Of a stretch of DNA of 21,680 bases, positions 2,418 through 19,961 are shown in pieces (the stretch's first letter is position 1; every line of letters begins with the position of its first letter). The stretch spans positions 1 through 21,680 of the forward strand of contig PATE01000136.1 in NCBI GenBank assembly GCA_002712305.1. Reading direction: 5' to 3'. The notes under the pieces are model-generated. The model was not told the origin of the DNA, did no database searches, and saw only the letters and a list, made by a program, of their open reading frames with translations. The position numbers and the translations under genes are program-made. Source of the DNA: Gemmatimonadota bacterium. Its GTDB lineage: Bacteria > Latescibacterota > UBA2968 > UBA8231.

Positions 2418-3809
2418 TCAGCCCTCTTCTTCTTTGCGCTTCTTCGCCGAAACTCGATCCTGAAACGCGGACTTCAGCTTCTCGTCGGTATGATGTCCTC
2501 TGCGTTCTTCGATTCGCTTGTCCACCGAAGCCTTCAGCTTTTCACTCTTCAGCTTGTCCTCTTCCGGCTTCTCATCTTCACGGAAACGCTGATTGAGAAG
2601 GATGAGCAGCTTACTGAAGGTATTCTGGTTTTCGGCGCCCTGATGCAGGGCGTAGGGTGGCATAAACTTCAAACCACGCTCCATCGAATTGCGCCCTCGC
2701 TCCTCAATCAGATCACGTGGAAAGACGCGGAAGGTGACTCGGAATTGCTCACGGGCATCCTCTACACGCTCAAGCAGCAAGGGTAGATAGGCATCCACCT
2801 CTTTGCCCGCCTTTTTTGGGAACCCTCGAGCCAGCGATTCAGCGATCCCTTCATCCATTCGGAAGTACAGAAGGAAACCGAGTTTGATGTTGATCTCGCC
2901 AATATTCTCGTTCGGCTTCTTAATGACCGATGGACGTGCGACCTCGTGATCGATGCCTTCCACGAGACGCTCCTTGATCATCAAGGTGATATCGCCCGTG
3001 GTCTCAAACATGTCGATGACAATGTTATCGATCACCTTCAGATCTTCACGTTCGACATACTTGTCGAGGGGGTCTCGAATCGCGTCGAAGAAGTTCCCCT
3101 GCGTGCTCTTCTGATTCCATCCTCCCCCACCGGGGAAGATCAGTAGCTTTGCGCCGGACAAGTAGCGCTCCAATACCTGGCCGTCCGTTCTGCCGGGACC
3201 ACCCGGAAAAGAGTTTACCGTATCGATGCGGATCTCGATGATGTCCTCGCCGCGGACAAGTACATCCTTGGAGAACTTCTTCTCTGCTTCCTCTCGCGGG
3301 CCTGCCCAATGTTTGCCGGCATTGTTCGGGTCCTCCTTGATGTAGAAGGACTTGCGCAGAAAGAAACCCTTGGCCAGGAAATACACAGGGCCTTCTGAGT
3401 CGTCGACGGTTGTGGTATAGGTCAGTCTGACCTGCTCGCCGGCCGTGAGAAATCGATCGGTCGGTTCAAACGCACCGCCCCCTTTGGAGCGCGGTGCGTT
3501 CATGAACACGACGGCCTTGGGAACCTCCTTGAACTTGCGGAAGGAAAACCCGCACAGCAGACCCTGACCTCGGCCGTTCTCAACAGATTCTGTCTGCATC
3601 CGAGGTCGCAGAATCTCTGCGTTGACCTCCGCTTCGCGAAATGGAGCAAACAGCGTCTGTAGCTCTTTGGCTTTTGAGAACATCTCTGGCCGGGAAAAGG
3701 GCTTGGGCGGCTGTTTTTCCGCCGGTGCCTTGGCGCCATCAGAGGCCTTTTCGCCTGCCGCCTTCTTCTTCTTGACGACCTTTTTCTTTTCTTCTTTGAC
3801 CTTACCCAC
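2418..3809 (-). CDS. Unrecognised lysine-rich conserved-looking protein, 463 aa
   Basis: I do not recognise a family. From the chosen GTG at 3809 the protein begins with a strongly basic low-complexity tail (GKVKEEKKKVVKKKKAAG, then Ala/Pro/Lys-rich to about residue 36). A mixed alpha/beta body follows at about 38-410. It includes glycine-rich segments FPGGPGRTDG (about 201-210) and IFPGGGGWNQ (about 224-233), and a basic FLRKSFYIKED stretch (about 150-160). The C-terminus is a highly charged, probably helical tail rich in Lys and Glu (about 410-463). There is no signal peptide or membrane segment. The frame opens further upstream to GTG 3866. However, GTG 3809 has a strong AGAGGTG Shine-Dalgarno with a 5-base gap, and the promoter at 3869-3897 would start transcription near 3862, below the longer start. 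It is convergent with the PilZ-like gene, which suggests but does not prove a related role. A nucleic-acid- or envelope-binding basic protein is possible, but no function can be assigned. Confidence 0.75.
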   Translation of the reverse strand: MGKVKEEKKKVVKKKKAAGEKASDGAKAPAEKQPPKPFSRPEMFSKAKELQTLFAPFREAEVNAEILRPRMQTESVENGRGQGLLCGFSFRKFKEVPKAVVFMNAPRSKGGGAFEPTDRFLTAGEQVRLTYTTTVDDSEGPVYFLAKGFFLRKSFYIKEDPNNAGKHWAGPREEAEKKFSKDVLVRGEDIIEIRIDTVNSFPGGPGRTDGQVLERYLSGAKLLIFPGGGGWNQKSTQGNFFDAIRDPLDKYVEREDLKVIDNIVIDMFETTGDITLMIKERLVEGIDHEVARPSVIKKPNENIGEINIKLGFLLYFRMDEGIAESLARGFPKKAGKEVDAYLPLLLERVEDAREQFRVTFRVFPRDLIEERGRNSMERGLKFMPPYALHQGAENQNTFSKLLILLNQRFREDEKPEEDKLKSEKLKASVDKRIEERRGHHTDEKLKSAFQDRVSAKKRKEEEG

Positions 3810-3868
3810 AAAAACACCTCTCTCGAGGAACGGCAGCGTCGAAATCGCGGAACTTGTTGATTCCACTT

Positions 3869-5433: not shown

Positions 5434-5853
5434 CTACTCGTCGCCCTGATTCTCTTCCTCTGCCTCGGGAAGATCTTCGCTCAGCGCCGAGTCGCCAGAG
5501 CGATCAACGAGTTCAATCAAGCACATCTCCGCTCCATCACCACGTCTTGGTCCCGTCTTGATGACGCGAGTATACCCACCGGGCCGTTCAGAAAACCGTG
5601 GTCCAATGTCGTCGAAGAGTTTAGCCACGACGGTCTTGCTGGCGATAACCCTCAAGACCTGGCGTCGTGCGTGAAGATCACCACGCTTGGCAAACGTAAT
5701 CAGGCTTTCCGCAGTGCTCCGCAGAGCCTTTGCCCTGGCACTCGTCGTGGAGATGATCTCGTGCTCAAACAGAGACGCGGCCATGTTCCCCATCATCGCT
5801 TTGCGATGGGATCTGCCGCGACCGAGTTTGGCCGTCTTTTTACCGTGTCGCAT
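5434..5853 (-). CDS. rplQ: 50S ribosomal protein L17
   Basis: L17 sits near the exit of the polypeptide tunnel in the large subunit. The protein opens with MRHGKKTAKLGRGRSHRKAM, the family hallmark. KALRSTAESLITFAKRGD (about 43-60) and GPRFSERPGGYTRVIK (about 83-98) follow, then RRGDGAEMCLIELVD. At 139 residues it is somewhat longer than the shortest L17 because of an acidic tail after position 116 (EDLPEAEEENQGDE). It is the last gene of the cluster, 21 bases after rpoA as usual, and is followed by an intrinsic terminator. Confidence 0.98.
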   Translation of the reverse strand: MRHGKKTAKLGRGRSHRKAMMGNMAASLFEHEIISTTSARAKALRSTAESLITFAKRGDLHARRQVLRVIASKTVVAKLFDDIGPRFSERPGGYTRVIKTGPRRGDGAEMCLIELVDRSGDSALSEDLPEAEEENQGDE

Positions 5854-5874
5854 GATAGATTCCGATCAGTCTTT

Positions 5875-6891
5875 CTAGAAGTCCTCGGCCAAGGAGCTCG
5901 CGGGCTCGTCTTCGACCTCAACATCGTCGTATTTGGAGATGTCCATCCCCCACGCCAAGTCAAGCGACGTCAGAATGTCTCCCAACTCATTGAGTGACTT
6001 GCGGCCGAAGTTCCGGAACTTCAACATCTCCGCTTCACTCTTTGAAACCAATTCATGCAGGGTCGAAATACCAGCCGCCCGCAGGCAGTTTGCCGAACGC
6101 ACGGATAATTCTAGTTCCTCGACGGGCATGGCCAGCATGCGTGCGACACGCTTGGTCTCCTCATCGACTTCCTTCTCTTCGGCAGGGGCGGGCTCCTGCT
6201 CGTAGTTTGCGATCAGACCGAAGTGGTCGATGAGAACTCGTGCCGCCTGAGCAACGGCATCCTGTGGCGACAGGGCACCATCGGTCGTCACCTCTAGAGT
6301 GAGGCGGTCGTAGTCCGTTCGGCGACCGACACGAGCATTCTCGATCTCATAGTTTACTTTCAGCACGGGCGAGAAATTCGCATCCAGTGGGACCGTGCCG
6401 ATCGGTTGGTCCGCAACCTTGTTGTCTTCAGCGAACACGTATCCGCGACCTGTGCCGATCATGAGATCCATCTTGAGCTCTGCGTCTTTGCCGAGCGTGG
6501 CGATATGGAGATCTGGGTTCATGACGTCCACCGAGGCATCGACGGCCAGATCCTTTGCTTTCACTTCGCTCGGCCCCTTCGCATGCACACGGATCGTACG
6601 GTCTTCTTCTCCGTGATAGCGCAGGGCGACTTCCTTGAGATTGAGAACGATCTCGGGGATATCCTCTCGGACACCTTTTACGACAGAAAATTCGTGCTGC
6701 ACACCTTCGATATTCAGGGACTTGATCGCGGCTCCCTGAATTGAGGAGACGAGTACACGACGTAGGGCATGACCGACAGTAACGCCGAAACCGCGCTCGA
6801 GCGGCTGCATGACGAAGCGTCCGTAGGTATCGGTGAGGCTGTCCTGGTCGATCTCGAGCAACCTGGGCATCTGCAGACCTTCAAGGGCCAT
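5875..6891 (-). CDS. rpoA: DNA-directed RNA polymerase alpha subunit
   Basis: Alpha dimerises to nucleate assembly of RNA polymerase, and its C-terminal domain contacts UP elements and activators. From MALEGLQ (ATG 6891) the protein is 338 aa. The N-terminal dimerisation domain has the conserved LERGFGVTVGHALRRVLVSS (about 31-50). A flexible acidic linker (PAPAEEKEVDEE) follows, then the C-terminal helix-hairpin-helix domain. That domain has ELSVRSANCLRAAGI, including the arginine equivalent to E. coli R265 that contacts DNA, and LKFRNFGRKSLNEL. The frame is open to 7152, but the upstream part has no family similarity and overlaps rpsD. ATG 6870 (MPRLLEID) with a GAAGG site 7 bases upstream is an alternative start. 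A structured 169-base spacer separates it from rpsD. Confidence 0.97.
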   Translation of the reverse strand: MALEGLQMPRLLEIDQDSLTDTYGRFVMQPLERGFGVTVGHALRRVLVSSIQGAAIKSLNIEGVQHEFSVVKGVREDIPEIVLNLKEVALRYHGEEDRTIRVHAKGPSEVKAKDLAVDASVDVMNPDLHIATLGKDAELKMDLMIGTGRGYVFAEDNKVADQPIGTVPLDANFSPVLKVNYEIENARVGRRTDYDRLTLEVTTDGALSPQDAVAQAARVLIDHFGLIANYEQEPAPAEEKEVDEETKRVARMLAMPVEELELSVRSANCLRAAGISTLHELVSKSEAEMLKFRNFGRKSLNELGDILTSLDLAWGMDISKYDDVEVEDEPASSLAEDF

Positions 6892-7060
6892 ATGGATCTC
6901 TATCCCCCATGAGCTGGGAACGTGAAATGTGATTCGGATTCGGATGAATCGCGACGACTCGCGCCACCCGTTTCTAAGCGCCCTCGGCGCCACCTCGCGG
7001 GACCAGCCCGCGGCAGCCGGCCCGATGAACGGTCCGGAAGTAATGTGTGTACTGTTTTCC
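6892..7060 (-). promoter_or_regulatory. Long structured rpsD-rpoA spacer
   Basis: At 169 bases this is the longest gap inside the cluster. It holds a run of short perfect hairpins: GATTC/GAATC (6937-6950), CGCGA/TCGCG (6950-6963; shares base 6950 with the first), GCGCC/GGCGC (6978-6990) and CGCGGG/CCCGCG (6996-7012). None is followed by a U-tract on the minus strand, so they are not ordinary terminators. I see no convincing -35/-10 pair. It could be an RNA processing site, a feedback binding site for S4, or a Rho-sensitive region controlling rpoA and rplQ; these are inferences. Confidence 0.45.
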
Positions 7061-7687
7061 CTACACGCGGCTATAGAACTCGATAACGAGCTGTTCCTCG
7101 ACCGGCGTTGGGATGTCGCCACGATTCGGGCGCTCGGACACGGTACCCACAAGGTTTGCCTTGTCTACTGTCAGCCAAGCGACCAGTTCACGCGAACGAC
7201 GCATCGATTCCTGAATGACCTCCAACTTGCGACTGCTCTCGGCGACGGAGATGACATCACCCGGCTCCGTCAAATAGGACGGAACGTTCACACGTCGCCC
7301 ATTCACGGTGAAGTGATTGTGACGCACCAACTGCCTGGCTCCTTTGCGTGAGGGAGCCATCCCAAGTCGGAACACAACATTGTCTAACCTGCCCTCAAGC
7401 AGACGCAGCAAGTTCTCACCGCTGACACCCGGAACTCGAGTTGATTCTTTGTAGTATTTGCGGAACTGGCCCTCTCGGATGCCGTAGATCCGAGCCATCT
7501 TCTGCTTGGCACGCAACTGAACGCTGTATTCCGATTGCTTGCGGCGCATGCCTTGCCCGTGCTGCCCTGGCGCATAAGACCTGCGCTCAAAGGCACACTT
7601 CTCAAGATTGCAGCGCTCTCCCTTGAGGAAGAGCTTTGCTCCCTCGCGGCGGCACTGGCGGCAATTAGGTCCTGTATATCTGCTCAT
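7061..7687 (-). CDS. rpsD: 30S ribosomal protein S4
   Basis: S4 is a primary 16S rRNA binder that starts small-subunit assembly, and in several bacteria it represses its own operon. The protein opens [16 protein letters not shown] and keeps four cysteines (C9, C12, C26, C31) arranged as the zinc site of the C+ form of S4. YAPGQHGQ follows at about 39-46. The S4 RNA-binding domain is around 97-160 ([32 protein letters not shown]). At 208 aa it is of normal length, with the usual C-terminal [11 protein letters not shown]. It lies between rpsK and rpoA as in the classic alpha operon. Confidence 0.98.
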
Positions 7688-7720
7688 GGTCGAGTCGTCT
7701 CGGCTGGTGAATACCGTCGC

Positions 7721-8155
7721 TTACACACGGCGACGCTTGGGAGGACGGCAGCCGTTGTGCGGCACCGGCGTAACATCACGGATCGCCGAAATCTCCAGAC
7801 CGGCGTTCTGTAGAGCACGGATCGCGGAATCGCGGCCAACGCCCGGGCCCTTGACCCAGACTTCGACCCGACGCAGCCCCATGCTCACCGCTTCCTGGGC
7901 AGCCCGTTCTGCAGCCAGCTGCCCCGCGAAGGGCGTCGACTTTCGGCTTCCGACGATTCCGACCTTGCCCGGAGTCGCCCAGGAAAGCACGTTGCCCTCA
8001 ACATCGGTGAGGGTGATAATCGTGTTGTTGAAGGTGGATAAGATGTGCGCCACACCCAGTGCTTCTACCTTCTTAGACTTCTTGCGACGGCGACGGCCTC
8101 TCTCTGCTGGCAACTCTTCTAACGTCCTGCTAAAGTCTACATGAATGTGCGGCAC
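7721..8155 (-). CDS. rpsK: 30S ribosomal protein S11
   Basis: S11 forms part of the platform of the small subunit beside the mRNA exit. Family blocks are complete: [15 protein letters not shown] (about 37-51), [18 protein letters not shown] (about 68-85), [15 protein letters not shown] and the invariant C-terminal [20 protein letters not shown]. The frame begins at GTG 8155 and gives 144 aa, about 15 more than usual. The extra [17 protein letters not shown] has no clear ribosome binding site. A start further inside, near the basic [11 protein letters not shown] segment, cannot be excluded. It follows rpsM after an 88-base gap in which no gene is seen. Confidence 0.95.
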
Positions 8156-8243
8156 CGACTGCGACGCACATGTGTTTCTTACAGGTCCGGAGAATCAGCT
8201 GGGCCGAGTCTCCGCAGCACCTCTGCTCGAGGCGCTCTGTCGC

Positions 8244-8624
8244 CTACTTGGTAGGCGCCTTCTTCTTGCCGGCGATCGATCGTCTCGGACCCTTCCGTGT
8301 GCGCGCATTTGTCTGCGTGCGCTGCCCACGAACCGGCAGTCCACGTCGATGGCGAAGGCCACGATAGCAGCCGATATCCATCAGACGTTTGATGTTCATG
8401 TTCACCTCTCCGCGCAGAGTTCCTTCCACGCGATAGTTGCGTTCGATGATGCCGCGCAACTGCGTGACCTGCTCCTCGGTGAGGGTGTGCACCTTCGCCA
8501 TTGGATCGAGCTTCGATTCGGCGAGAATCGCTTCGGCCGATGTCCGCCCAATACCGTAGATGTAGGTCAGGCCGATGCGGATGCTCTTGTCGCGGGGAAG
8601 ATCTACCCCGGCGATACGTGCCAT
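8244..8624 (-). CDS. rpsM: 30S ribosomal protein S13
   Basis: S13 is in the head of the small subunit, where it contacts the P-site tRNA and the B1 bridges to the large subunit. The protein starts [20 protein letters not shown] with the helix-turn [14 protein letters not shown]. It contains [33 protein letters not shown], split here only by the usual family positions, and a lysine-rich tail (KKKAPTK). The length of 126 aa is normal. ATG 8624 is preceded by an AGGAG site 8 bases upstream. It opens the alpha-operon part after rpmJ. Confidence 0.98.
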
Positions 8625-8665
8625 GTATTTGCTCCTAAGCCTTCTATAGTTTTTCGCTGTAGCGT

Positions 8666-8782
8666 TTAGCCCTGGCGCTGCTTGTGCCGTGGGTTCCGCT
8701 TACAGATGACGCGCACTACCCCGTGGCGCCGGATGATCTTGCAGTCGGCACAACGCTTGCCGACAGATGCTTTGACTTTCAC
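8666..8782 (-). CDS. rpmJ: 50S ribosomal protein L36 (zinc-binding form)
   Basis: This 38-residue protein of the large subunit reads [20 protein letters not shown], followed by [18 protein letters not shown]. Cys11, Cys14, Cys27 and His33 form the zinc site of the C+ type. The start is GTG 8782, with AGGAG nine bases upstream and a second purine run AAGGGA closer in. It lies directly after secY with 33 bases between. adk, map and infA, which sit here in many bacteria, are absent, as in enterobacteria. Confidence 0.96.
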
Positions 8783-8815
8783 GTCCCTTGTCTCCTGCTA
8801 TGTCCACTGTAGCCT

Positions 8816-10150
8816 CTAACGCCGGCCCTGAATACGGCCCTTCTTCATGAATCCCTCATAGTGACGGGTCATCAGTTGGGACTCGATCTGTTGGAGTGTG
8901 TCGAGAGCCACACCGACAATGATGAGCAATCCAGTACCACCGAAGAACTGGCTATAGGACGGCGTCACATTGAATTGCTCGATCACGAAAAAGGGAAACA
9001 CGGCGACGGCAGCCAACGCAAAGGACCCCGGAAGGGTAATCCGCGTCAGAATACTGTCGATGTAGGCGGCCGTGCGCTTCCCTGGCCGCACACCCGGAAT
9101 GAAGCCACCGTGACGCTTCATATTGTCCGACAATTGATTCGGATCCATGACGATGGCGGTATAAAAGTACGTAAAGAAAATGATCATCATCCCGTAGAAG
9201 AACCAGTAGAAGAGCGAGTTCGTGGAGAAGTATGTCCCCATGCTCTGCATCAGTTCACTCTGGGGCCAGAATTGCGTCAGCGTGCCCGGAAGAAACATGA
9301 TCGATTGGGCGAAGATGATGGGAATCACGCCAGCCGCATTGATTCGCATGGGAATGTGCGTAGACTGCCCACCATAGACACGTCGCCCCACGACGCGTTT
9401 CGCGTATTGCACCGGTATCCGTCGCTGCCCCTGTGTGAGCAACACGACAAAAGCAACGACGATGACAATGAGGGCGAGGAGGAAGATCTCTTCGATCAGA
9501 CTCTTGCTGAAGCCCCGGTTGATGAGGTAGTGATTCCACTCACTCTTCACGGCGAAAGGCAATTCTGCGATGATGCCGATGAAGATGATCAGTGAAATAC
9601 CGTTGCCGATTCCACGCTCTGTGATCTGCTCGCCAAGCCACATGATGAAGATCGTACCCGTTGTGATCGTCACCATCGTCAGGAGCCGGAACCCCCAACC
9701 CGGGTCGATGACCGCCTCGATACCAGAGGTCTGGCCACGGATACTTTCAAGGAAGTAGCTGACACCCAGTGACTGCGCCGCCGCCAGGAACACCGTCCCA
9801 TAACGCGTGTACTGGTTAATCTTCTTACGGCCTTCCTCCCCTTCGCGCTGCAACTTCTGGAAGAAAGGAACCACGGCGCCCATCAACTGGAGAATAATGG
9901 AGGCCGAGATATAGGGCATGATCCCAAGGGCGAAAACCGTAGCTCTTGTGAACGCGCCACCGACGAACATGTCATAGAGTCCGAAGATCGTGCTACCGGC
10001 GCTGGCGAACCATTCCTGTAGAATGATCGATCGGATGCCCGGGACGGTGATCTGTCCACCGATTCGGTAAACGATCAGAATGCCAATCGTATACAGGATT
10101 TTCCGGCGCAGGTCCGGGATCTTGAAGCAATTTTGGATGCTCTGAAGCAC
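8816..10150 (-). CDS. secY: Protein translocase channel subunit SecY
   Basis: SecY is the pore of the SecYEG translocon in the inner membrane and carries secreted and membrane proteins. The 444-aa product has the family's ten hydrophobic segments, beginning with KILYTIGILIVYRIGG (about 17-32). It has the conserved GIMPYISASIILQLM (about 76-90), GNGISLIIFIGII (about 177-189), and the cytoplasmic loops QRRIPVQYAKR (about 241-251) and FIPGVRPGKRTAAYI. These loops contact the ribosome and SecA. GTG 10150 is the only reasonable start; its ribosome site (GCGGAAAAAC) is weak. It begins 11 bases after rplO, so translation may be coupled. Confidence 0.98.
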   Translation of the reverse strand: MLQSIQNCFKIPDLRRKILYTIGILIVYRIGGQITVPGIRSIILQEWFASAGSTIFGLYDMFVGGAFTRATVFALGIMPYISASIILQLMGAVVPFFQKLQREGEEGRKKINQYTRYGTVFLAAAQSLGVSYFLESIRGQTSGIEAVIDPGWGFRLLTMVTITTGTIFIMWLGEQITERGIGNGISLIIFIGIIAELPFAVKSEWNHYLINRGFSKSLIEEIFLLALIVIVVAFVVLLTQGQRRIPVQYAKRVVGRRVYGGQSTHIPMRINAAGVIPIIFAQSIMFLPGTLTQFWPQSELMQSMGTYFSTNSLFYWFFYGMMIIFFTYFYTAIVMDPNQLSDNMKRHGGFIPGVRPGKRTAAYIDSILTRITLPGSFALAAVAVFPFFVIEQFNVTPSYSQFFGGTGLLIIVGVALDTLQQIESQLMTRHYEGFMKKGRIQGRR

Positions 10151-10161
10151 GTTTTTCCGCT

Positions 10162-10617
10162 TTAGCCCTCGACGCCCTGCGCCGAACCACCCGCTTGTTC
10201 AATCTTTGCACGTGCGGACTTGGAGAATGCGTGCGCGCGAACGTTCAGTGTTGCACTCAGATCGCCGTCCCCAAGAATCTTGATCGTATCTGTCGCCTTG
10301 CGAACCAGTCCGGCCTTGGCAAGTTCGGCAGGACCTACGTCACCTTCGAGACCAGCCTTCTGAATCTCGCCAACGTTGACGACTTGGAAGGTGGTACGGA
10401 ACTTGGCGTTTGAGAATCCGATCTTGGGCAAACGACGATGCAAGGGCATCTGGCCGCCCTCAAAGCCCCGGCGCGAACCACGCATGCCGCCCGAGCGAGA
10501 ACGCTGCCCTTTGTGACCACGTCCAGCCGTCTTGCCGTTACCCGTTCCGGGTCCTTTGCCCTTACGCTTGGCCGTACGCCGTGACCCAGGCGCCGGACTC
10601 AAGTCTCCCAGCTTCAT
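10162..10617 (-). CDS. rplO: 50S ribosomal protein L15
   Basis: L15 is a late-assembly large-subunit protein with an extended glycine- and arginine-rich N-terminus. From ATG 10617 it reads MKLGDLSPAPGSRRTAKRKG, then GPGTGNGKTAGRGHKGQRSRSG, and GFEGGQMPLHRRLPKIGF, all family hallmarks; a globular C-terminus ends at residue 151. The open frame extends to 10872, but that part is the rpmD region in another frame and has no family similarity. It starts 5 bases after the rpmD stop, with AAGGA near the start codon. Confidence 0.97.
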   Translation of the reverse strand: MKLGDLSPAPGSRRTAKRKGKGPGTGNGKTAGRGHKGQRSRSGGMRGSRRGFEGGQMPLHRRLPKIGFSNAKFRTTFQVVNVGEIQKAGLEGDVGPAELAKAGLVRKATDTIKILGDGDLSATLNVRAHAFSKSARAKIEQAGGSAQGVEG

Positions 10618-10622
10618 ATTCC

Positions 10623-10802
10623 TTATGCCTCTTCCGAAACGCTTACGAGGTGGACGACCTTGGCGATCATGCCGCGAATCTGCGGCGTGTCGTTGTGGAC
10701 GACGGTATGATGGAGTCGTCGGATGCCGAGAGCCCGGACCGTGCCTTGTTGTTTCTGGCTGCGCCCAATGGCACTGCGCACCTGTGTGATGGACAATTTC
10801 AT
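10623..10802 (-). CDS. rpmD: 50S ribosomal protein L30
   Basis: This 59-residue large-subunit protein begins [20 protein letters not shown], then [20 protein letters not shown], the signature of bacterial L30, and ends with [18 protein letters not shown]. The ATG at 10802 overlaps the rpsE stop codon by four bases (ATGA), typical of translational coupling, and GGAGAG lies 8 bases upstream. Its position between rpsE and rplO is canonical. Confidence 0.96.
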
Positions 10803-11302
10803 CGGAGACTCTCCATAGGCACACCGCGAACGCGCGAGGTCGTCTCAGCATCACGCAGTTCACGCAGACCATCTAACGTTGCCTTGATCGTGTTCTGCGA
10901 GTTGGCAGACCCCAGTGACTTGGTCAGAATATCGTGGATTCCGGCAAGATCAAGCACGATCCGGATACCACCACTGGCGATCACCCCAGTTCCGGGCGAC
11001 GCTGGTTTCAGCAGAACACGCGCTGCACCGAAACGTCCGATGATCTCGTGCGGGATCGTTCCGTCGACAACAGGCACGCTGAACACCTGCTTCTTGGCGT
11101 CCTCTGTTGCTTTGCGAATGGCCTCAGCAACTTCTCCAGCCTTGCCGGACCCAACGCCCACATTGCCCGCGCGGTCACCGACCACCACCATTGCCGTGAA
11201 GGAGAAATTGCGTCCACCCTTGCGCACATGAGACACGCGGCGGACGCTGTTCTGAACGACGACCTCAGTTAGTTCGGAGGAATTTGAATCCGTTTTTGCC
11301 AA
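10799..11302 (-). CDS. rpsE: 30S ribosomal protein S5
   Basis: S5 is in the small-subunit body near the mRNA entry and affects decoding accuracy. The double-stranded RNA-binding domain (about 10-75) contains [18 protein letters not shown], the loop where spectinomycin-resistance changes occur in other bacteria, then [20 protein letters not shown]. The C-terminal domain has [19 protein letters not shown]. At 167 aa the length is normal. The start is TTG 11302, with AGGAA seven bases upstream; no ATG or GTG fits the family N-terminus. The end overlaps rpmD. Confidence 0.97.
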
Positions 11303-11333
11303 ACCTGTTTCCTGTTCCTGACGCTTCTATGAC

Positions 11334-11699
11334 TCAGAACTGGAGGCCGCCCTCGCGGGCACCCTCGGCGACGGCGCGAATGACGCCGTGGTAGATCAAC
11401 CCAGCACGATCAAAGACGACCTTCTCTACACCCTGCTCTTTGGCCTTCGACGCGATCAACTTGCCGAGTTCGTGGCCTTGCTGCGTTCGCGGAATCTGCT
11501 TGTCGAACCCCTTGGCCAACGTCGACAGACCGATGATCGAATGGCCGGCCACGTCATCGACGAGTTGTGCCTCGATATTGCGCAAGGAACGCCGCACCAC
11601 CAAGCGAGGTCGCTCGGCGGTTCCAGAGATCCGCTTTCGAATTCGGTGGCGACGCCGTCGCTGCGCGATGGCCTTCTGCTTCTGCTGCCTGTTTTGCAC
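11334..11699 (-). CDS. rplR: 50S ribosomal protein L18
   Basis: L18 binds 5S rRNA with L5 in the central protuberance. The basic N-terminus (RRRRHRIRKRISGTAERPRL, about 15-34) is the RNA-binding arm. It is followed by VVRRSLRNIEAQLVDD, and the C-terminal VVFDRAGLIYHGVIRAVAEGAREGGL is the family signature. The length is 121 aa. Translation starts at GTG 11699 with only a weak ribosome site. A 65-base gap separates it from rplF. Confidence 0.97.
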   Translation of the reverse strand: MQNRQQKQKAIAQRRRRHRIRKRISGTAERPRLVVRRSLRNIEAQLVDDVAGHSIIGLSTLAKGFDKQIPRTQQGHELGKLIASKAKEQGVEKVVFDRAGLIYHGVIRAVAEGAREGGLQF

Positions 11700-11764
11700 G
11701 TCCAGTTAGTCCCGTTGGATGTCGAAGTCTGTTCGAGTCGATGCCTGCAGGAATCGCAGTTGTC

Positions 11765-12325
11765 TTAGGCGACGGCGGCCGTCTTGCCGGCCTTCCAGTG
11801 AATCACTTCGTCCACGTAACGAATCCCCTTGCCCTTGTAGGGGTCGGGTTTCCGTGTTTGGCGGATTTCGGCGGCCACCTGACCAACCTGCTGCTTGTCG
11901 ATACCCTGTACAACGATTCGCGCCTGCACTCCACCGGTGCCGTCGGAAACGTCGAGAGCAATTCCCTGCGGTGCTTCGTAAAGCACGGGGTGCGAGTAGC
12001 CAATGTGGAGGGTCAGCTTGCTGCCCTGGGCCTCGGCGCGATATCCGACACCGTGAACCTCAAGCACCTTGCTGAAACCTTCCGTTACGCCTTGGACTGC
12101 GTTGGCCACCAGCGACCGCGTGAGCCCGTGCAGTGCCATCGCCTCCTTGATGTCGCCCTTGCGCTCGACGACCACTTCGCCTTCGGCGATGCGGACATCG
12201 ACATGATCGTCCCTGTATCTTAGGTCGAGTTCGCCCTTGGGCCCCTTCACATGGACATCCGGCGAGGATACGGTGACCTCTACCCCCTGAGGGATCGGAA
12301 CAGGCTGTTTTCCAACTCGAGACAC
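11765..12325 (-). CDS. rplF: 50S ribosomal protein L6
   Basis: L6 lies near the GTPase-associated centre and the sarcin-ricin loop. It begins MSRVGKQPVPIPQGVEV and has the two tandem L6 folds. The second contains the conserved EVHGVGYRAEAQG, GYSHPVLYEAPQGI and the C-terminal signature RKPDPYKGKGIRYVDEVI. At 186 aa it is slightly longer than the common 177-180 because of the tail HWKAGKTAAVA. The start is GTG 12325 with AAGGAG ten bases upstream. Confidence 0.97.
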   Translation of the reverse strand: MSRVGKQPVPIPQGVEVTVSSPDVHVKGPKGELDLRYRDDHVDVRIAEGEVVVERKGDIKEAMALHGLTRSLVANAVQGVTEGFSKVLEVHGVGYRAEAQGSKLTLHIGYSHPVLYEAPQGIALDVSDGTGGVQARIVVQGIDKQQVGQVAAEIRQTRKPDPYKGKGIRYVDEVIHWKAGKTAAVA

Positions 12326-12342
12326 GTTCGAAGGCTCCTTGA

Positions 12343-12741
12343 CTACCAGACGCTGCAGAGGACTTCGCCGCCGACACCCACCTTGCGGGCATCACGGTCG
12401 GTCATCACACCGCGTGAGGTAGTTACAATGGCAATACCGAGGCCACGTCGGACCCGCGGCAATTCGGTTTTAGCAGCGTAGCGCCGTAGTCCAGGTCTGC
12501 TGGCCCGACGAATCCCCTGAATGATGCCCCGACTCTTGTCGTCGTATCTCAGGTAAAGACGCAACTGGCCTTGCTTGCCGTCTTCGTAGAAAGCGAAATT
12601 GTCAATGAATCGCTCCTCTGCCAGCACACGCGAAATCTCGCGCTTGATACCGGAAGCAGGAACATCCACACTGCGGTGCTGGGCGCTGCTGGCGTTACGA
12701 ATACGCGTCAGCATATCGGCGATGGGGTCGGTCATGCTCAT
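12343..12741 (-). CDS. rpsH: 30S ribosomal protein S8
   Basis: S8 binds the central domain of 16S rRNA and, in E. coli, represses the spc operon. From ATG 12741 it reads MSMTDPIADMLTRIRNA, with KREISRVLAEERFIDNF in the middle and the C-terminal RNA-binding block GLGIAIVTTSRGVMTDRDAR, KVGVGGEVLCSVW. The length is 132 aa. The open frame extends upstream to 12858 but overlaps rpsN without family similarity. AAGGAA seven bases before ATG 12741 supports this start; it overlaps the end of rpsN. Confidence 0.97.
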   Translation of the reverse strand: MSMTDPIADMLTRIRNASSAQHRSVDVPASGIKREISRVLAEERFIDNFAFYEDGKQGQLRLYLRYDDKSRGIIQGIRRASRPGLRRYAAKTELPRVRRGLGIAIVTTSRGVMTDRDARKVGVGGEVLCSVW

Positions 12742-12751
12742 AGTAGGTTCC

Positions 12752-12937
12752 TTACCAACTCGCCTTGGTGACGCCAGGGATTTCGCCGCGCAGGGCCAAC
12801 TCGCGGAAGCAGATCCGGCACAGACCAAACTTGCGGTAGACCGCTCGAGGACGACCACATCGTTGGCAGCGGGTATACTTGCGCACGTTGAATTTCGGCT
12901 TGCGTGCAGCCTTGATGATCAGGCACTTCTTTGGCAT
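12752..12937 (-). CDS. rpsN: 30S ribosomal protein S14, zinc-binding type (type Z)
   Basis: S14 is in the head of the small subunit. This is the short 61-aa form: [20 protein letters not shown], followed by the zinc site CQRC and CRIC (C-x2-C twice), then [18 protein letters not shown]. This form is used by many lineages; the long zinc-free form is found in enterobacteria. ATG 12937 is chosen by family match. The frame is open to 12988, but the extra 17 residues overlap rplE. Its position between rplE and rpsH is canonical. Confidence 0.97.
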
Positions 12938-12965
12938 TCGCCGGTCTCTCGTCGTTGTAACAGCG

Positions 12966-13511
12966 TCAGTTGCTGAAAGGCACCCCAAAGAGTCTCAGCA
13001 ACTCCTTGGCTTCTTCGTCGGTCTTCGCTGAGGTGACGAAGGTGATGTTCATCCCCCGAATCTTGTCTATTCGGTCGTACTCGATCTCAGGGAAAATGAT
13101 CTGCTCCCTGATGCCGAGATTGTAGTTTCCCTGGCCATCGAAGCCGCGGGACGGGACACCACGGAAATCTCGCACCTGGGGCAGGGTAAAGTTCACCAAT
13201 CTGTCCAGGAACTCATACATCCGCTCTTTGCGGAGGGTGACCTTCGCGCCGATGGGCATTCCCTCGCGCAACTTGAAGTTCGAAATCGCCTTCTTGGACC
13301 TGCGCACACTCGGCTTCTGGCCGGTGATGGCTGTCAGTTCAGCCAAGACGTTCTCAAGGGCTTTGGGCTCCTGCACCGCTTCGCCAACGCCCGCGTTAAC
13401 GACGATCTTCTCGAGCTTTGGCACCTGCATGGTATTGCTGTACTGGAACCGCTCGCGCAGGGCAGGTGCCACCTCGGCGACGTACGTGTCTTTGAGTCTG
13501 CTGGTTGTCAT
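12966..13511 (-). CDS. rplE: 50S ribosomal protein L5
   Basis: L5 binds 5S rRNA in the central protuberance and contacts the P-site tRNA. The protein contains [16 protein letters not shown] (about 32-47), [20 protein letters not shown] (about 64-83), the [20 protein letters not shown] signature (about 115-134), [17 protein letters not shown] and the C-terminal [13 protein letters not shown] 13511 is preferred because GGAG lies six bases upstream. An in-frame GTG directly before it (13514) would add one residue. The length is 181 aa. The start abuts the rplX stop. Confidence 0.98.
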
Positions 13512-13514
13512 CAC

Positions 13515-13832
13515 CTACTCCGAGTCGATCATCTCGCCGCTTCGCGCGGCGACTCGAACGTTCCGGCCATCATCGAGGCGTTTCTTGCCGACCCGTGTCG
13601 GCTCGTCATTGTGGGGATCGATGACCATCACATTGGAAACATGAATCGGCGCCTCTCGCTCCACGATCCCCCCTTGAGGGTCACGCTGCGTCGGCTTTGT
13701 GTGCTTCTTCATCATTCGGATTCCCTCGACAATCAGGCGATCTTGTTCTGGAATCACTCGCAGGACCCGCCCGCGCTTACCCTTGTCATTGCCACTGATC
13801 ACAAGCACAGTGTCATCGCGTCTGATCTTCAT
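13515..13832 (-). CDS. rplX: 50S ribosomal protein L24
   Basis: L24 is one of the two assembly-initiator proteins of the large subunit. From ATG 13832 it is 105 aa. The KOW motif is VLVISGNDKGKRGRVLRVIP (about 9-28), followed by VEGIRMMKKHTKPTQRDPQG, GGIVEREAPIHVSNVM, and a C-terminal KKRLDDGRNVRVAARSGEMI. AGGAG eight bases upstream supports the start; the open frame reaching 14153 overlaps rplN and is not family-like. The TAG stop lies next to the rplE start. Confidence 0.97.
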   Translation of the reverse strand: MKIRRDDTVLVISGNDKGKRGRVLRVIPEQDRLIVEGIRMMKKHTKPTQRDPQGGIVEREAPIHVSNVMVIDPHNDEPTRVGKKRLDDGRNVRVAARSGEMIDSE

Positions 13833-13843
13833 GCCATGATCTC

Positions 13844-14212
13844 CTAAACGACTTCCGGTGCGAGGGAGACGATGCGCATGAACTGTCGATCTCGGAGCTC
13901 TCGTGCCACAGGTCCGAAGATGCGTGAACCGCGCGGCTCGTTGTTTGCGTCGAGCAGGACCGCAGCATTCTCGTCGAAGCGGATATAGGATCCGTCGGTT
14001 CGACGAAACTCCTTCTTCGTCCGCACCACGACGGCGCGCGCCACCTCGCCCTCCTTCAGAGGGCCGTTGGGCAACACGTCGTGCACGGCGACAACGATGA
14101 GGTCGCCGACGCCAGCGTAACGCCGCTTTGTTCCCCCTAGGACACGGATGCACTTGGCGCTGCGGGCACCCGCATTGTCCGCCATCCGCAGGATTGAATA
14201 TTCGTGAATCAT
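13844..14212 (-). CDS. rplN: 50S ribosomal protein L14
   Basis: L14 lies at the subunit interface and binds initiation and anti-association factors in other bacteria. It reads [20 protein letters not shown] (family: ADNSGA), then [39 protein letters not shown], and the [20 protein letters not shown] signature, ending REFM-type [17 protein letters not shown]. The length of 122 aa is exactly typical. ATG 14212 has an AAAGAG site nearby. Confidence 0.98.
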
Positions 14213-14244
14213 CTGCTCTTTATGCTCTCTGGTCTGCTCTCACA

Positions 14245-14511
14245 CTACTCGGTAGCTCGGGCGACAACCTCGACGAGGCGCCAGCGCTTGGTCTTGCTCA
14301 TCGGGCGGCACTCCCGGATGCGAACCAGGTCGCCAACGGCGGACTGATTGCCTTCATCGTGAGTGACGGCCTTCGTCGTCCGGGCAATCTGACGGCCATA
14401 CAGGCGGTGCGCCGTGCGAGACTCGATCGCGACAACCCGGGTCTTTTCACTTCCAGCTTTGATCACTCGGCCTTCGATCAGTCGGCCGCCAAAGCCATCG
14501 TTCTGTGCCAT
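14245..14511 (-). CDS. rpsQ: 30S ribosomal protein S17
   Basis: S17 binds the 5' and central domains of 16S rRNA. It is an OB-fold protein of 88 aa with LIEGRVIKAGSEKTRVVAIE (about 11-30), HRLYGRQIARTTKAVTHDE (about 35-53) and the GDLVRIRECRPMSKTKRWRL signature (about 60-79). The ATG at 14511 follows the rpmC stop by three bases. AAGGA about ten bases upstream lies inside rpmC, so expression is probably coupled. Confidence 0.98.
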   Translation of the reverse strand: MAQNDGFGGRLIEGRVIKAGSEKTRVVAIESRTAHRLYGRQIARTTKAVTHDEGNQSAVGDLVRIRECRPMSKTKRWRLVEVVARATE

Positions 14512-14514
14512 TGA

Positions 14515-14748
14515 CTATTCGTCCTTCGCGGTGGCATCGCCACCAGGTAGGGTGCGAAGACCCTGCTCATGCTCTTTGAGCAGAGTTCGGACCCGGGCAA
14601 TGTCTCGCCGCACGTCCCGCATGCGAATCGGGCTGCTCAATTGCCCTAGTGTATTCTGGAATCGGAGGTTGAAGCTCTCCTCTCCCAACTCATCAAGGCG
14701 CCCTTTGAGCTCGTCGACGCTTTGTTCTCTCATCTCGCTGGCTTTCAT
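14515..14748 (-). CDS. rpmC: 50S ribosomal protein L29
   Basis: L29 is near the tunnel exit, next to L23 and the docking sites for trigger factor and SRP. The 77-aa protein reads MKASEMREQSVDELKGRLDE, with FNLRFQNTLGQLSSPIRMRD (about 26-45) and IARVRTLLKEHE (about 50-61), two long helices typical of the family. A short hydrophilic tail (GGDATAKDE) is extra. AGGAG lies five bases before ATG 14748. Confidence 0.97.
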   Translation of the reverse strand: MKASEMREQSVDELKGRLDELGEESFNLRFQNTLGQLSSPIRMRDVRRDIARVRTLLKEHEQGLRTLPGGDATAKDE

Positions 14749-14756
14749 GATCGCTC

Positions 14757-15167
14757 CTAGCCCAATCTCTCGACGAACTTTGTCTTGATGGGCAACTTGT
14801 GACCCGCAAGTCGCAGGGCCTCTTTCGCGACCTCCAACTCAACACCCGATAACTCAAACATGATTCGTCCGGGTTTAACGACGGCAACCCAATCCTCTGG
14901 GGCTCCCTTGCCCTTCCCCATGCGCGTTTCTGCCGGCTTCTTCGTCCGCGGTTTATCCGGAAAGATGCGTATCCACATCTTGCCACTCCGACTCATTGCG
15001 CGACTGATGGCGATACGGGCGGCTTCGATCTGACGGCTGGAGATCCAGCCCGGCTCCATGGCCTTCAGACCGAACTCCCCGAAGGAAACGAGAGCGCCTC
15101 CCTTGGCCTGTCCGCGCATTCGACCGCGCGACTGCTTGCGCCACTCGACCTTCTTGGGCATCAACAT
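14757..15167 (-). CDS. rplP: 50S ribosomal protein L16
   Basis: L16 contacts the A-site tRNA elbow and is needed for late large-subunit assembly. The protein has [60 protein letters not shown], and [20 protein letters not shown], then [20 protein letters not shown], all strongly conserved. It is 136 aa from ATG 15167 or 134 aa from the second in-frame ATG at 15161, which gives the usual MPKK start. The AGGAAAG site is 8-12 bases upstream. Confidence 0.98.
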
Positions 15168-15194
15168 GGTGCTGGTTTCTTTCCTCTATTGTCC

Positions 15195-15857
15195 TTAAGA
15201 CTGCTGCGGCTGCTGTTCTTCTTCGACTTCATCCACCACCTCACCGTGGCAGATCCAGCATTTGACCCCTACCGTGCCTGAGATCGTGTATGCTGTCGAA
15301 TGCGCAAAATCGATATCGGCGCGCAAGGTGTGCAAAGGCACGCGACCGGCGGGTTCGGATCGTTCACGCCGTGACATTTCGGATCCACCGATCCGCCCTG
15401 CGCACTCGATACGAATTCCTTCGGCTCCCATCCGCATGGCGGAGGCGACAGATCGCTTGATCGCCCGGCGGAATGCGACACGCTGTTCCAACTGACGAGC
15501 CAGATTGTCTGCTACGAGTTGGGCATCGAGCTCAGGCTTCTTCACTTCCTGAATGTTGAGTGACACATCCTTCTGCGTCAGCGTCTTGAGCTCCTCACGC
15601 AGTTTGTCCACCTCGGCACCCCGGCGACCGATTGCGATTCCCGGTCGGGCGCAATGCACTTCGATGGTCACACGCTTGGGTTGCCGCTCGATGTGCACCT
15701 TTGCCACACCGGCTCGCTGCAAACGCTGACCGATATATCGCCGGAGCGTGATATCCTCGGCCAGCAACTCGGCAAAGTCCTTCTCGGCAAACCAATTCGA
15801 ACTCCAGCCCTTGATGACGCCGAGACGGAAGCCGTATGGATGTGTCTTCTGACCCAC
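15195..15857 (-). CDS. rpsC: 30S ribosomal protein S3
   Basis: S3 lines the mRNA entry channel and, with S4 and S5, contributes to helicase activity of the ribosome. It begins [20 protein letters not shown]. It has a type II KH domain with [20 protein letters not shown] (about 71-90), and a C-terminal domain with [20 protein letters not shown] and [21 protein letters not shown]. At 220 aa, the last 16 residues form an acidic and Gln-rich tail (EEEQQPQQS). GTG 15857 is the start with AAGGA upstream, which overlaps the rplV end region. Confidence 0.98.
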
Positions 15858-15871
15858 GTGGGTATCCTTCG

Positions 15872-16288
15872 TTATTCTTCGGTGTCGACGACGGCCTCGG
15901 CCGGCGCCTCGTCAGTCTGGTCGACTGCGGTCTGATTCACGGTGGCTCGCCCATCGGAGACGATGATCGTCACATGGCTCTGCCGCTTGTTGATACGATT
16001 GGCCGAACCGCGTGCTCTGGGACGCAGACGCTTCAGCGTACGACCTTCGTCAGCAAAAACCCGACTGACGAACAACTCGTCTGCATCGATGGTGACTTCA
16101 TCGTCACGGTTCACGGCGTTGGCGATTGCCGAGCGCAGTGTCTTCTCGATGATCCGAGCAGAAAAACGGGGCGAGTGTTGCAGAATCGCCAGTGCTTCTT
16201 CCACCGACTTGCCGCGGATCAGATCGATGACCTGTCGGACCTTGGTGGCGGGAATGCCAATGTGCCGTTGTACGGCTCGCGCTTCCAT
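15872..16288 (-). CDS. rplV: 50S ribosomal protein L22
   Basis: L22 reaches into the peptide exit tunnel with a long beta hairpin, where it affects macrolide response and stalling peptides. The protein has MEARAVQRHIGIPATKVRQV, DLIRGKSVEEALAILQHSPR, KTLRSAIANAVNR and LKRLRPRARGSANRINKRQS, the tunnel hairpin region. ATG 16288 has an AGGGTGA site five bases upstream and is preferred over the in-frame GTG 16294. At 138 aa it is longer than the usual 110-115 because of an acidic C-terminal tail (about 24 residues, ending VVDTEE). Confidence 0.97.
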   Translation of the reverse strand: MEARAVQRHIGIPATKVRQVIDLIRGKSVEEALAILQHSPRFSARIIEKTLRSAIANAVNRDDEVTIDADELFVSRVFADEGRTLKRLRPRARGSANRINKRQSHVTIIVSDGRATVNQTAVDQTDEAPAEAVVDTEE

Positions 16289-16295
16289 GTTCACC

Positions 16296-16583
16296 CTAAC
16301 TTAGCGCGGCGCTACGCTCAGTGGAGCGTCCCGCATGACTGCGAAACGTCCGCGTCGGCGCAAACTCGCCAAGCTTGTGGCCCACCATATTCTCGGTGAT
16401 GTAGACGGGGATGAACTTGTTGCCGTTGTGGACGGCCAGTGTGTGCCCGACGAAATCTGGGGTGATCGTCGATCGCCTGGACCACGTTCGAACGACTTTC
16501 TTGTCGCCCGATTTGTTCAAGGCTTCAACCTTCTCGGCCAAATGCTCGTCGATGAAGGGGCCCTTCTTGATTGACCTTGCCAA
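16296..16583 (-). CDS. rpsS: 30S ribosomal protein S19
   Basis: S19 is in the head of the small subunit and pairs with S13 at the bridge to the large subunit. The protein begins [20 protein letters not shown] and has [40 protein letters not shown] and [13 protein letters not shown], a full family match of 95 aa. The start codon is TTG at 16583, with AGGAG about five to six bases upstream; no ATG is available at this position. Its stop overlaps the Shine-Dalgarno of rplV. Confidence 0.97.
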
Positions 16584-16642
16584 GTTCTCTCCTGCCGTCC
16601 TCGTTTATACCTGATTGCGAGCGTGTTGTTGCGTGCGATCGC

Positions 16643-17482
16643 CTACTTGCGGCTTCGTCGACGCAAGATCCAGGCATTCGATGCCTTCTTGCGTCTGCGT
16701 GTCTTGTATCCCTTGGTCGGCTTGCCCCAGGGGGTGACCGGATGACGGCCACCGGAGGATTTGCCCTCGCCACCGCCATGCGGGTGGTCGACCGGATTCA
16801 TCACAACACCACGAACCTTGGGGCGCCGTCCAAGCCAGCGGGACCGTCCCGCCTTGCCGCCGACAACGTTGGCGTGATCCGTATTCCCCACCTGCCCGAT
16901 CGTGGCGCAGCAGGTCTTCAATACTTCGCGAATCTCACCAGAAGGTATGCGCAGTTGCACGCGCCCCCCCTCCTCCTCATCCCGACCCATGATCTGAACC
17001 TCGGCGCCGGCGCTCCGGGCCATTCTTCCGCCCTGCCCGGGGTTCAACTCGATGTTGTGGACGAGTGTCCCTACGGGAATTCTCCCGAGCGGGAGGGTGT
17101 TGCCTACCGAGATCGGTGCATCGGGACCAGACATGACCTCGTCGCCGATGCCCAACCGATTCGGCGCCAGGATGTATCGCTTGTCACCATTCTTGTAGAA
17201 GATGAGGGCGATGAAGGCGGACCGATTCGGATCGTACTCGATGGTGGCAACGCGGCCAGGGATCCCCACGTTATCTCGGCGAAAATCGACGATTCGATAT
17301 CGACGCTTGTGGCCACCACCGCGTCGACGTGAGGTGATGCGCCCCCGATTGTTGCGCCCACCCGATTTGGTGATGGTGTCCGTCAGCGCCTTGTGCGGGG
17401 CATCGCTGGACACCTCTTCGAAGGTGTTGACTGTTCGGTAGCGCTGAATCGGCGTAACGGGCCGAAAGCGTTTGATCGGCAT
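16643..17482 (-). CDS. rplB: 50S ribosomal protein L2
   Basis: L2 is a primary 23S rRNA binder next to the peptidyl transferase centre and is needed for subunit association. The 279-aa protein has [20 protein letters not shown] (about 42-61), [20 protein letters not shown], and [20 protein letters not shown]. The C-terminal [20 protein letters not shown] contains the conserved histidine equivalent to E. coli H229, followed by [21 protein letters not shown] 17482 is preceded by GGAGAG nine bases upstream. Confidence 0.98.
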
Positions 17483-17487
17483 TCTGT

Positions 17488-17772
17488 CTAGCTCTCCACC
17501 AGTTCGATCGAATCACCGGCCCGCAGTTTCACGTAGGCCTTCTTGCCTTTTGACGTCATTCCGACGGCGACGCCTTGGCGCTTTTTCTTGCGCGGGACAG
17601 GCACGGTTCTCACCGACTCCACCTTCACCTCGAAGATCGATTCCACGGCCTGACGAATCTGAATCTTGTTCGCCCGTGGGTCGACGCGGAAGGTGTATGT
17701 ATTCCCGTCACGCAGGATGGTCGCCTTTTCGGTGATCACCGGCGACCGCAGTACTGTACGCTCCACTGCCAT
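17488..17772 (-). CDS. rplW: 50S ribosomal protein L23
   Basis: L23 sits at the tunnel exit and docks trigger factor and the signal recognition particle. The 94-aa product reads [20 protein letters not shown], then [20 protein letters not shown] and [20 protein letters not shown], followed by [15 protein letters not shown]. The conserved FxVxxxANKxxIkxAVE pattern is present. ATG 17772 has a GGGAAGAG purine run upstream. It lies 11 bases after rplD and 5 before rplB. Confidence 0.97.
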
Positions 17773-17783
17773 CTTCTCTTCCC

Positions 17784-18413
17784 TCAGCCCCCGTGAACCT
17801 TGCTCAGCGCTTCCACGCTGGCTGAGGTCAGCACCAGGATATCGTGCGCAATGATTTCATACGTACCCACGGTGCCAGCTGTGCTCATCGTCACGCCCGC
17901 GATATTGCGCCCTGACTTCACAACAGCCGGATTTGCATCGGCCTGGACGAACAACACCTTGCCACTGGCGCCACATGCATTCAACAACGAGGCAAACGTC
18001 TTTGTGCTGGGTTCGCTGAGCTGCACGTCATCTACGACGAGCACCTTGCCCTCGCTAGCCTTCAGGCTCAGTGCTGAAGAGATCGCCCGCTTGCGCATCG
18101 ACCGAGTAAGGCGACTCGAGTAGGACCTGGGCTTCGGCAGACTGAATGCCGAGCCACCGCCCCGCAGGATCGGTGAACCAACTGTGCCCCGGCGTGCGCT
18201 GCCGGTACCCTTCTGCCGGTGGTGCTTGCGCTTGGAGTATGCAACCTCTGAGCGCCCCTTCACAGACGCATTGCCTTGACGCTGATTGGCCTCGTACACA
18301 ACTACGGCACGGTGAATTGCCTGCTCAGACACCTCCGCCTCGAATAGCTGGGCTGGGAGGTCAACGCTGCCAGACTTTTGGCCTGCAGCACTGAGAATAT
18401 CGACGGACGCCAT
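17784..18413 (-). CDS. rplD: 50S ribosomal protein L4
   Basis: L4 lines the exit tunnel and, in E. coli, represses the S10 operon by attenuation. The 209-aa protein has VYEANQRQGNASVKGRSEV (about 39-57), and RQKGTGSARRGTVGSPILRG with GGGSAFSLPKPRSYSSRLTR, the extended tunnel loop. KVLVVDDVQL and NIAGVTMSTAGTVGTYEIIA follow. It starts at ATG 18413, 8 bases after the rpsJ stop, without a strong Shine-Dalgarno (GACAAGAG). rplC, normally between rpsJ and rplD, is missing. The N-terminus MASVDILSAAGQKSGSVDLP is intact, so it is not a fusion with L3. Confidence 0.97.
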   Translation of the reverse strand: MASVDILSAAGQKSGSVDLPAQLFEAEVSEQAIHRAVVVYEANQRQGNASVKGRSEVAYSKRKHHRQKGTGSARRGTVGSPILRGGGSAFSLPKPRSYSSRLTRSMRKRAISSALSLKASEGKVLVVDDVQLSEPSTKTFASLLNACGASGKVLFVQADANPAVVKSGRNIAGVTMSTAGTVGTYEIIAHDILVLTSASVEALSKVHGG

Positions 18414-18421
18414 CTCTTGTC

Positions 18422-18730
18422 TCAGACCTTGATGTCGATTCCGATGCCGGCAGGTAGATCAAGCTTCATCAATGAATCCACCGTTTGGGGTGTAGATTCA
18501 TAGATATCGATCAACCGCTTGTGCACACGGGTTTCAAACTGTTCACGAGACTTCTTGTCAACATGCGGTCCACGTAGAACCGTGTAGATCGTGCGATCCG
18601 TCGGCAGAGGGACAGGCCCGGCAATCCGCGCTCCGCTGCGTCGAACCGTCTGGACGATCTCGTCCACCGACCGGTCCAGCGCCGCGTGATCGTATGCCTT
18701 CAACCGAATGCGAATTCTATCAACAGCCAC
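18422..18730 (-). CDS. rpsJ: 30S ribosomal protein S10 (NusE)
   Basis: S10 is in the head of the small subunit and also acts as NusE in transcription antitermination, linking NusG and RNA polymerase to the ribosome. The 102-aa product contains [80 protein letters not shown] and [11 protein letters not shown], a complete family match. The start is GTG 18730 after the purine-rich GGAGAGGGAAGAG. It follows tuf by 40 bases; the small hairpin in that gap has no U-tract. The next gene is rplD rather than rplC. Confidence 0.98.
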
Positions 18731-18770: not shown

Positions 18771-19961
18771 TTACTCGGTGATCTCGGTGACGACGCCGGA
18801 ACCAATCGTGCGACCACCCTCGCGGATGGCGAAACGAAGCCCCGGCTCGACGGCGATCGGCTGAATCAGATCGACATCGATCGTCACGTTGTCGCCGGGC
18901 ATCACCATCTCCGTGCCCTCAGGCAGGGCGATGTTGCCGGTCACGTCTGTCGTGCGGAAGTAAAACTGCGGACGGTAACCATTGAAGAAGGGCTTCTCAC
19001 GCCCCCCCTCCTTGGCCGTCAACACATAAACCTCAGCCTTGAATTTGGTGTGGGGTGTGATGCTGCCTGGCTTGCACAACACCATTCCACGAGTCAGATC
19101 GTCCTTGTCCACGCCCCGCAACAGGATACCGACGTTGTCGCCCGCCTCGCCCGTGTCGAGCAGCTTGCGGAACATCTCAACACCCGTACAGGTCGTCTTG
19201 CGGGTCTCGCGAATACCGACGATCTCAATTTCCTCGCCCACGTTGACAATACCACGCTCGATACGACCCGTTCCCACCGTGCCGCGTCCTGTGATCGAGA
19301 AGACGTCCTCGACAGGCATCAGGAAAGGCTGGTCTACAGGACGCTCTGGCAGCGGCACATACTCATCGACGGCATTCATCAACTCGTCGATGGCGACATT
19401 GCCGATCTCACCGTCATCACCCTCGACGGCCTTGAGAGCCGAGCCGCGAATGACCGGAAGATCATCACCCGGGAAATCGTACTCGGAGAGCAACTCGCGC
19501 GTCTCGAGCTCGACCAGGTCGAGCAACTCAGGATCATCGACCTGATCGACCTTGTTCATGAACACGACGATACGCGGAACATTCACCTGACGGGCCAACA
19601 GAATGTGCTCGCGAGTCTGGATCATCGGACCATCGGCAGCGCTCACGACGAGAATGGCTCCATCCATCTGAGCGGCACCGGTGATCATGTTCTTCACATA
19701 GTCAGCGTGACCAGGGCAGTCGACGTGGGCGTAGTGCCGCGAATCGGTCTCGTACTCCTGGTGAGAAACATTGATCGTCACTCCTCGGGCCTTCTCTTCC
19801 GGAGCATTGTCGATATCGTCGACCGACTTTGCCTCGGCGAGCCCTCTGGCGGCCAAACGCAGCGTGATCGCAGCGGTCAGCGTGGTCTTGCCGTGGTCAA
19901 CGTGACCGATCGTACCGATGTTCACGTGAGGCTTATTACGCTCGAACTTGTCCTTACCCAT
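18771..19961 (-). CDS. tuf: Translation elongation factor Tu
   Basis: EF-Tu delivers aminoacyl-tRNA to the ribosomal A site as a GTPase. Full length at 396 aa: P-loop GHVDHGKT (19-26), switch I with [10 protein letters not shown] (55-64), DCPGH (81-85) with catalytic His85, NKVD (about 136-139), and SALKA. Domains II and III follow, with [10 protein letters not shown] and [16 protein letters not shown]. Two positions differ from the common pattern: GPMIQTREH has Ile114 in place of Pro, and GRGTVGTGR has Gly where Val or Ala is usual. ATG 19961 has GGAGG about ten bases upstream. It lies between fusA and rpsJ as in the str-S10 junction. Confidence 0.98.

Follow-up and report, generated by a model that had tools for sequence, protein, structure and literature searches.

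The stretch of DNA analysed in this work, referred to as the window (21,680 nt), carries on its minus strand the gene run fusA-tuf-rpsJ-rplD-rplW-rplB-...-rplQ, which includes the S10 cluster, one of the best-conserved gene orders of bacteria. The gene for elongation factor Tu, tuf (18771..19961, minus strand; TIGR00485, 717 bits), lies immediately upstream of rpsJ (18422..18730, minus strand), which encodes an intact ribosomal protein S10 of 102 aa (TIGR01049, 143 bits, profile positions 2-99 of 99), followed by rplD (17784..18413, minus strand), encoding an intact ribosomal protein L4 of 209 aa (TIGR03953, 193 bits, profile positions 1-187 of 188). Only 8 bases (18414..18421, minus strand) separate rpsJ from rplD, and the gene for ribosomal protein L3, rplC, is not found there; the window therefore departs from the canonical S10 operon, defined by the presence of rplC between these two genes. 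With so short a gap, and with both neighbors at full length according to curated models, the absence of rplC from this position, reported in an earlier note on this DNA, was corroborated. Since neither rplC nor a remnant of it can fit in 8 bases, the persistence of a remnant at the junction is impossible.

The remaining S10-spc-alpha cluster, from rpsJ to rplQ (5434..18730, minus strand), is complete and collinear with that of sister orders except for the absent rplC, and its gene order was otherwise unchanged when the window was compared with 13 relatives, including members of the same order as well as of sister orders. In this sense the description of the rest of the cluster as complete stands, with the exception of adk, map and infA, which are not located between secY and rpmJ in the window; the corresponding interval (8666-8816) contains rpmJ as its sole gene (8666-8782). 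Further, two open reading frames in the vicinity of the alpha operon, of 503 aa (763-2274, plus strand) and 482 aa (2418-3866, minus strand), displayed no match to NCBIfam or Pfam models.

A search of the whole source genome, a draft of 146 contigs, identified one L3 gene, located outside the window on a contig of 40 kb (C125), in agreement with the expectation that L3 should be encoded elsewhere. This gene (locus L001; G000:C125:936-1556, plus strand) comprises 206 codons and corresponds to a full-length bacterial L3, scoring 268.5 bits against TIGR03625 over profile positions 1-201 of 202, above the curated cut-off of 142.9; its start is likely the ATG at position 936 of the locus, and its end is at 1556. 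Loss of the gene is ruled out by this intact copy.

The distribution of this arrangement was assessed in the 25 genomes of the order present in the database, all from uncultured Latescibacterota and representing one family and seven genera. In every one of the 23 genomes with a readable junction rpsJ is directly joined to rplD, with a gap of 5-59 nt measured from the last sense codon of rpsJ to the first aligned residue of L4, and rplC was found as a single copy outside the cluster in all 20 members in which it was detected, with no second copy or duplicate kept in place in any of them. The other five members, all of them fragmented drafts, gave no rplC match, presumably due to missing sequence. 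Both loci lie on one contig in six genomes (G001, G008, G009, G012, G013 and G020), in all of which rplC is located 32-121 kb upstream of the S10 cluster and on the same strand; in the single-contig genomes G012 and G013, the L3 and L4 loci are 113 and 92 kb apart, respectively. An argument based on gene dosage relative to oriC was considered and rejected, as the best dnaA match (a position of dnaA, not of oriC) lies megabases away from both loci in G012 and G013; these chromosomes measure about 6 Mb, and some 2.1-2.7 Mb separate the match from the S10 cluster. Regarding nomenclature, public records of several metagenome-assembled genomes (MAGs) of the order (L082, L083, L085, L086 and L090) are labelled Gemmatimonadetes or Gemmatimonadaceae, and their relatives are labelled Latescibacterota.

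The new site of rplC is conserved across the genera of the order, where its neighborhood consists of genes for a TPR protein, DHODB and DHOD, (cl10 and a pcm-like gene), a glycosyltransferase family 9 gene (GT9, minus), rplC (plus), a HIT-family hydrolase gene (HIT, minus), GT2 (plus) and MFS-HEAT (minus). The HIT gene follows rplC in 20/20 genomes and the GT9 gene precedes it in 19, the exception being G004, with flanks of 1.5 kb. Since the GT9 gene is divergent and the HIT gene convergent with respect to rplC, the latter is monocistronic at this site. In addition, infC lies some 6 kb away from rplC; this gene (L210:358-966, G000:C125) is not directly followed by rpmI or rplT, but by a short open reading frame in the opposite orientation and a FAD-oxidase-like gene. 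An empty target site was not found in the sister orders, where GT9 genes occur without HIT, GT2 or DHOD neighbors. Among the sister-order genomes, only G025 has MFS-HEAT and GT9 genes in the same orientation and some 4 kb apart, a pairing that is suggestive at best.

Candidate expression signals accompany the gene at its new location. A sigma70-like motif, TTGCNN-N17-TANNTT, with a spacer of 17 bases, precedes rplC within 150 nt in 20/20 genomes against 0.12 expected by shuffling, a figure that overstates independence given that the genomes are related and the pattern was chosen after viewing the sequences. The same motif occurs exactly once in each of ten loci of 8-16 kb, always at rplC, and is absent from eight S10 loci of 19 kb. 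Many members of the order also display AAGGAG-like ribosome-binding sites at rplC, with a short 5' region in most, as well as terminator-like hairpins with T-runs downstream of the gene. No structured leader was found, neither as a consensus fold over 20 sequences nor as an Rfam match, in a gappy leader alignment from which a small or divergent element could escape. The best reading of these signals is that rplC would be transcribed from its own promoter, with no detectable autoregulatory leader. L3 and L4 are early proteins of the large subunit, and as a rule they are encoded on one mRNA. The monocistronic arrangement together with the conserved promoter-like motif indicates that co-transcription of L3 and L4 has likely been lost, the putative promoter of rplC providing the replacement supply; on such anatomical grounds, the loss of L3-L4 coupling proposed in the earlier note gains support.

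Outside the order, rplC was found in place in 21 genomes from three other families of the class, and across the phylum it adjoins rplD in all 36 non-member genomes with a detected rplC; conversely, no order member has rplC in place, so that the comparison of relatives recommended in the earlier note places the canonical junction only in orders of the phylum other than this one. With rplC in place in the rest of the phylum and the order of the cluster unchanged, the relocated state is derived and confined to this order, and a single relocation event in its ancestor would be the simplest reading. Of a GTDB sample of 69 L3 loci drawn from other lineages, spanning many phyla and picked by L3 similarity and not by gene order, 67 displayed the canonical position. 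The two remaining loci correspond to a contig end (L150) and to an insertion between rplC and rplD (L103; Candidatus Tariuqbacter arcticus, JABMRZ010000155.1), in which two open reading frames of 90 and 132 aa separate both genes (L103:1156-1819). This insertion is located near the same site as the junction described here, but in another lineage.

The following features of a single-gene relocation are found in this case: rplC is gone from the cluster, the rest of the cluster is collinear, a single intact copy exists elsewhere, and relatives outside the order keep the gene in place. One alternative is an assembly or binning artefact, in which a segment of 0.6 kb was deleted or collapsed at the rpsJ-rplD junction; an assembly deletion was put forward in the earlier note, and the draft state of the source genome could speak for it. 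However, the same junction is present in 23 assemblies, two of them single-contig chromosomes, from what their record titles indicate to be several MAG projects, which excludes an assembly deletion, and 20 genomes carry a single-copy rplC at a conserved site elsewhere, leaving an artefact of any kind with a negligible probability. The intact copy together with the shared junction instead bears out the other explanation offered there, a clean relocation of one gene.

A second alternative concerns the origin of the moved copy, which may have been gained at the new site from a foreign lineage before the native gene was lost from the rpsJ-rplD interval. The L3 proteins of the order form one clade (support 100/100), and their identity to Desulfovibrio L3 (up to 57%) is about as high as that to sister orders (50-56%), which could be taken as a sign of replacement, although this comparison is biased, since the outgroups were selected by their similarity to the L3 of the order. 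Approximately unbiased (AU) tests likewise allow a grouping of the order's L3 with the outgroups (p-AU 0.47) as well as with its own class (p-AU 0.34), neither being rejected. On the other hand, in the unconstrained L3 tree a branch of weak support (83/59) divides all outgroups from the order and its phylum, and forcing the order's L3 to group with Desulfovibrio comes at a cost of 17 log units (p-AU 0.15). In the tree of concatenated S10, L4, L23 and L2, the order falls close to its class. Overall, replacement by a foreign gene appears quite improbable, and the moved rplC is likely the native gene, as favored on parsimony. The same-strand linkage of rplC and the S10 cluster is weakly suggestive of duplication and later loss, a mechanism of the kind considered in a study by Brandis (PMC8046335), and may also reflect one inherited state shared by the genomes.

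We therefore consider it very probable that rplC underwent a clean single-gene relocation and became a monocistronic gene with its own sigma70-type promoter, uncoupling L3 from L4. Under this reading, a single clean event in the order's ancestor would have taken the gene out of the rpsJ-rplD interval and set it down as a lone gene between the GT9 and HIT-hydrolase genes, in a move within the chromosome that perhaps involved duplication and then loss. The relocated gene would be transcribed alone from the predicted sigma70-type promoter, yielding an ordinary L3, while S10 and L4 would remain in the str-S10-spc-alpha cluster; the supply of L3 would then be freed from any transcription or translation coupled to L4.

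Exits of single genes from the S10-spc-alpha cluster are already known, and the present case is unusual in the gene involved and in its stability throughout an order. According to the text of the study by Brandis, Gammaproteobacteria and Bacilli contain 48 catalogued 'deletions' of this type, among them those of rplJL in H. influenzae and of secY in B. selenitireducens; its main text does not mention rplC (PMC8046335). As described there (PMC8046335), those cases resemble the one reported here in that an essential translation or secretion gene exits its cluster, with the operon order left intact and a copy elsewhere on the chromosome. The rplJL and secY cases were each found in a single species, whereas rplC is displaced to one conserved site in a whole order of seven genera. 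Our search of the openly accessible literature retrieved no relevant report of rplC relocation, or of Latescibacteria with regard to rplC. Compared with the canonical S10 operon of the other orders of the phylum (rpsJ-rplC-rplD-rplW-rplB), all other genes and their order are shared, and the difference lies in rplC, which is monocistronic and outside the cluster.

It is conceivable, though doubtful, that the dedicated promoter of L3, the initiator of large-subunit assembly according to the earlier note, is kept by selection, allowing this assembly to be set independently of the supply of S10 and L4; if true, this would constitute a lineage-specific rewiring of ribosome supply and not a neutral move. 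The relocation of rplC constitutes a clade-defining gene-order marker within Latescibacterota. Furthermore, a stable and natural uncoupling of L3 throughout an order suggests that the linkage between L3 and L4 is dispensable, and these bacteria represent a natural test of the need for co-operonic synthesis in balanced ribosome assembly.
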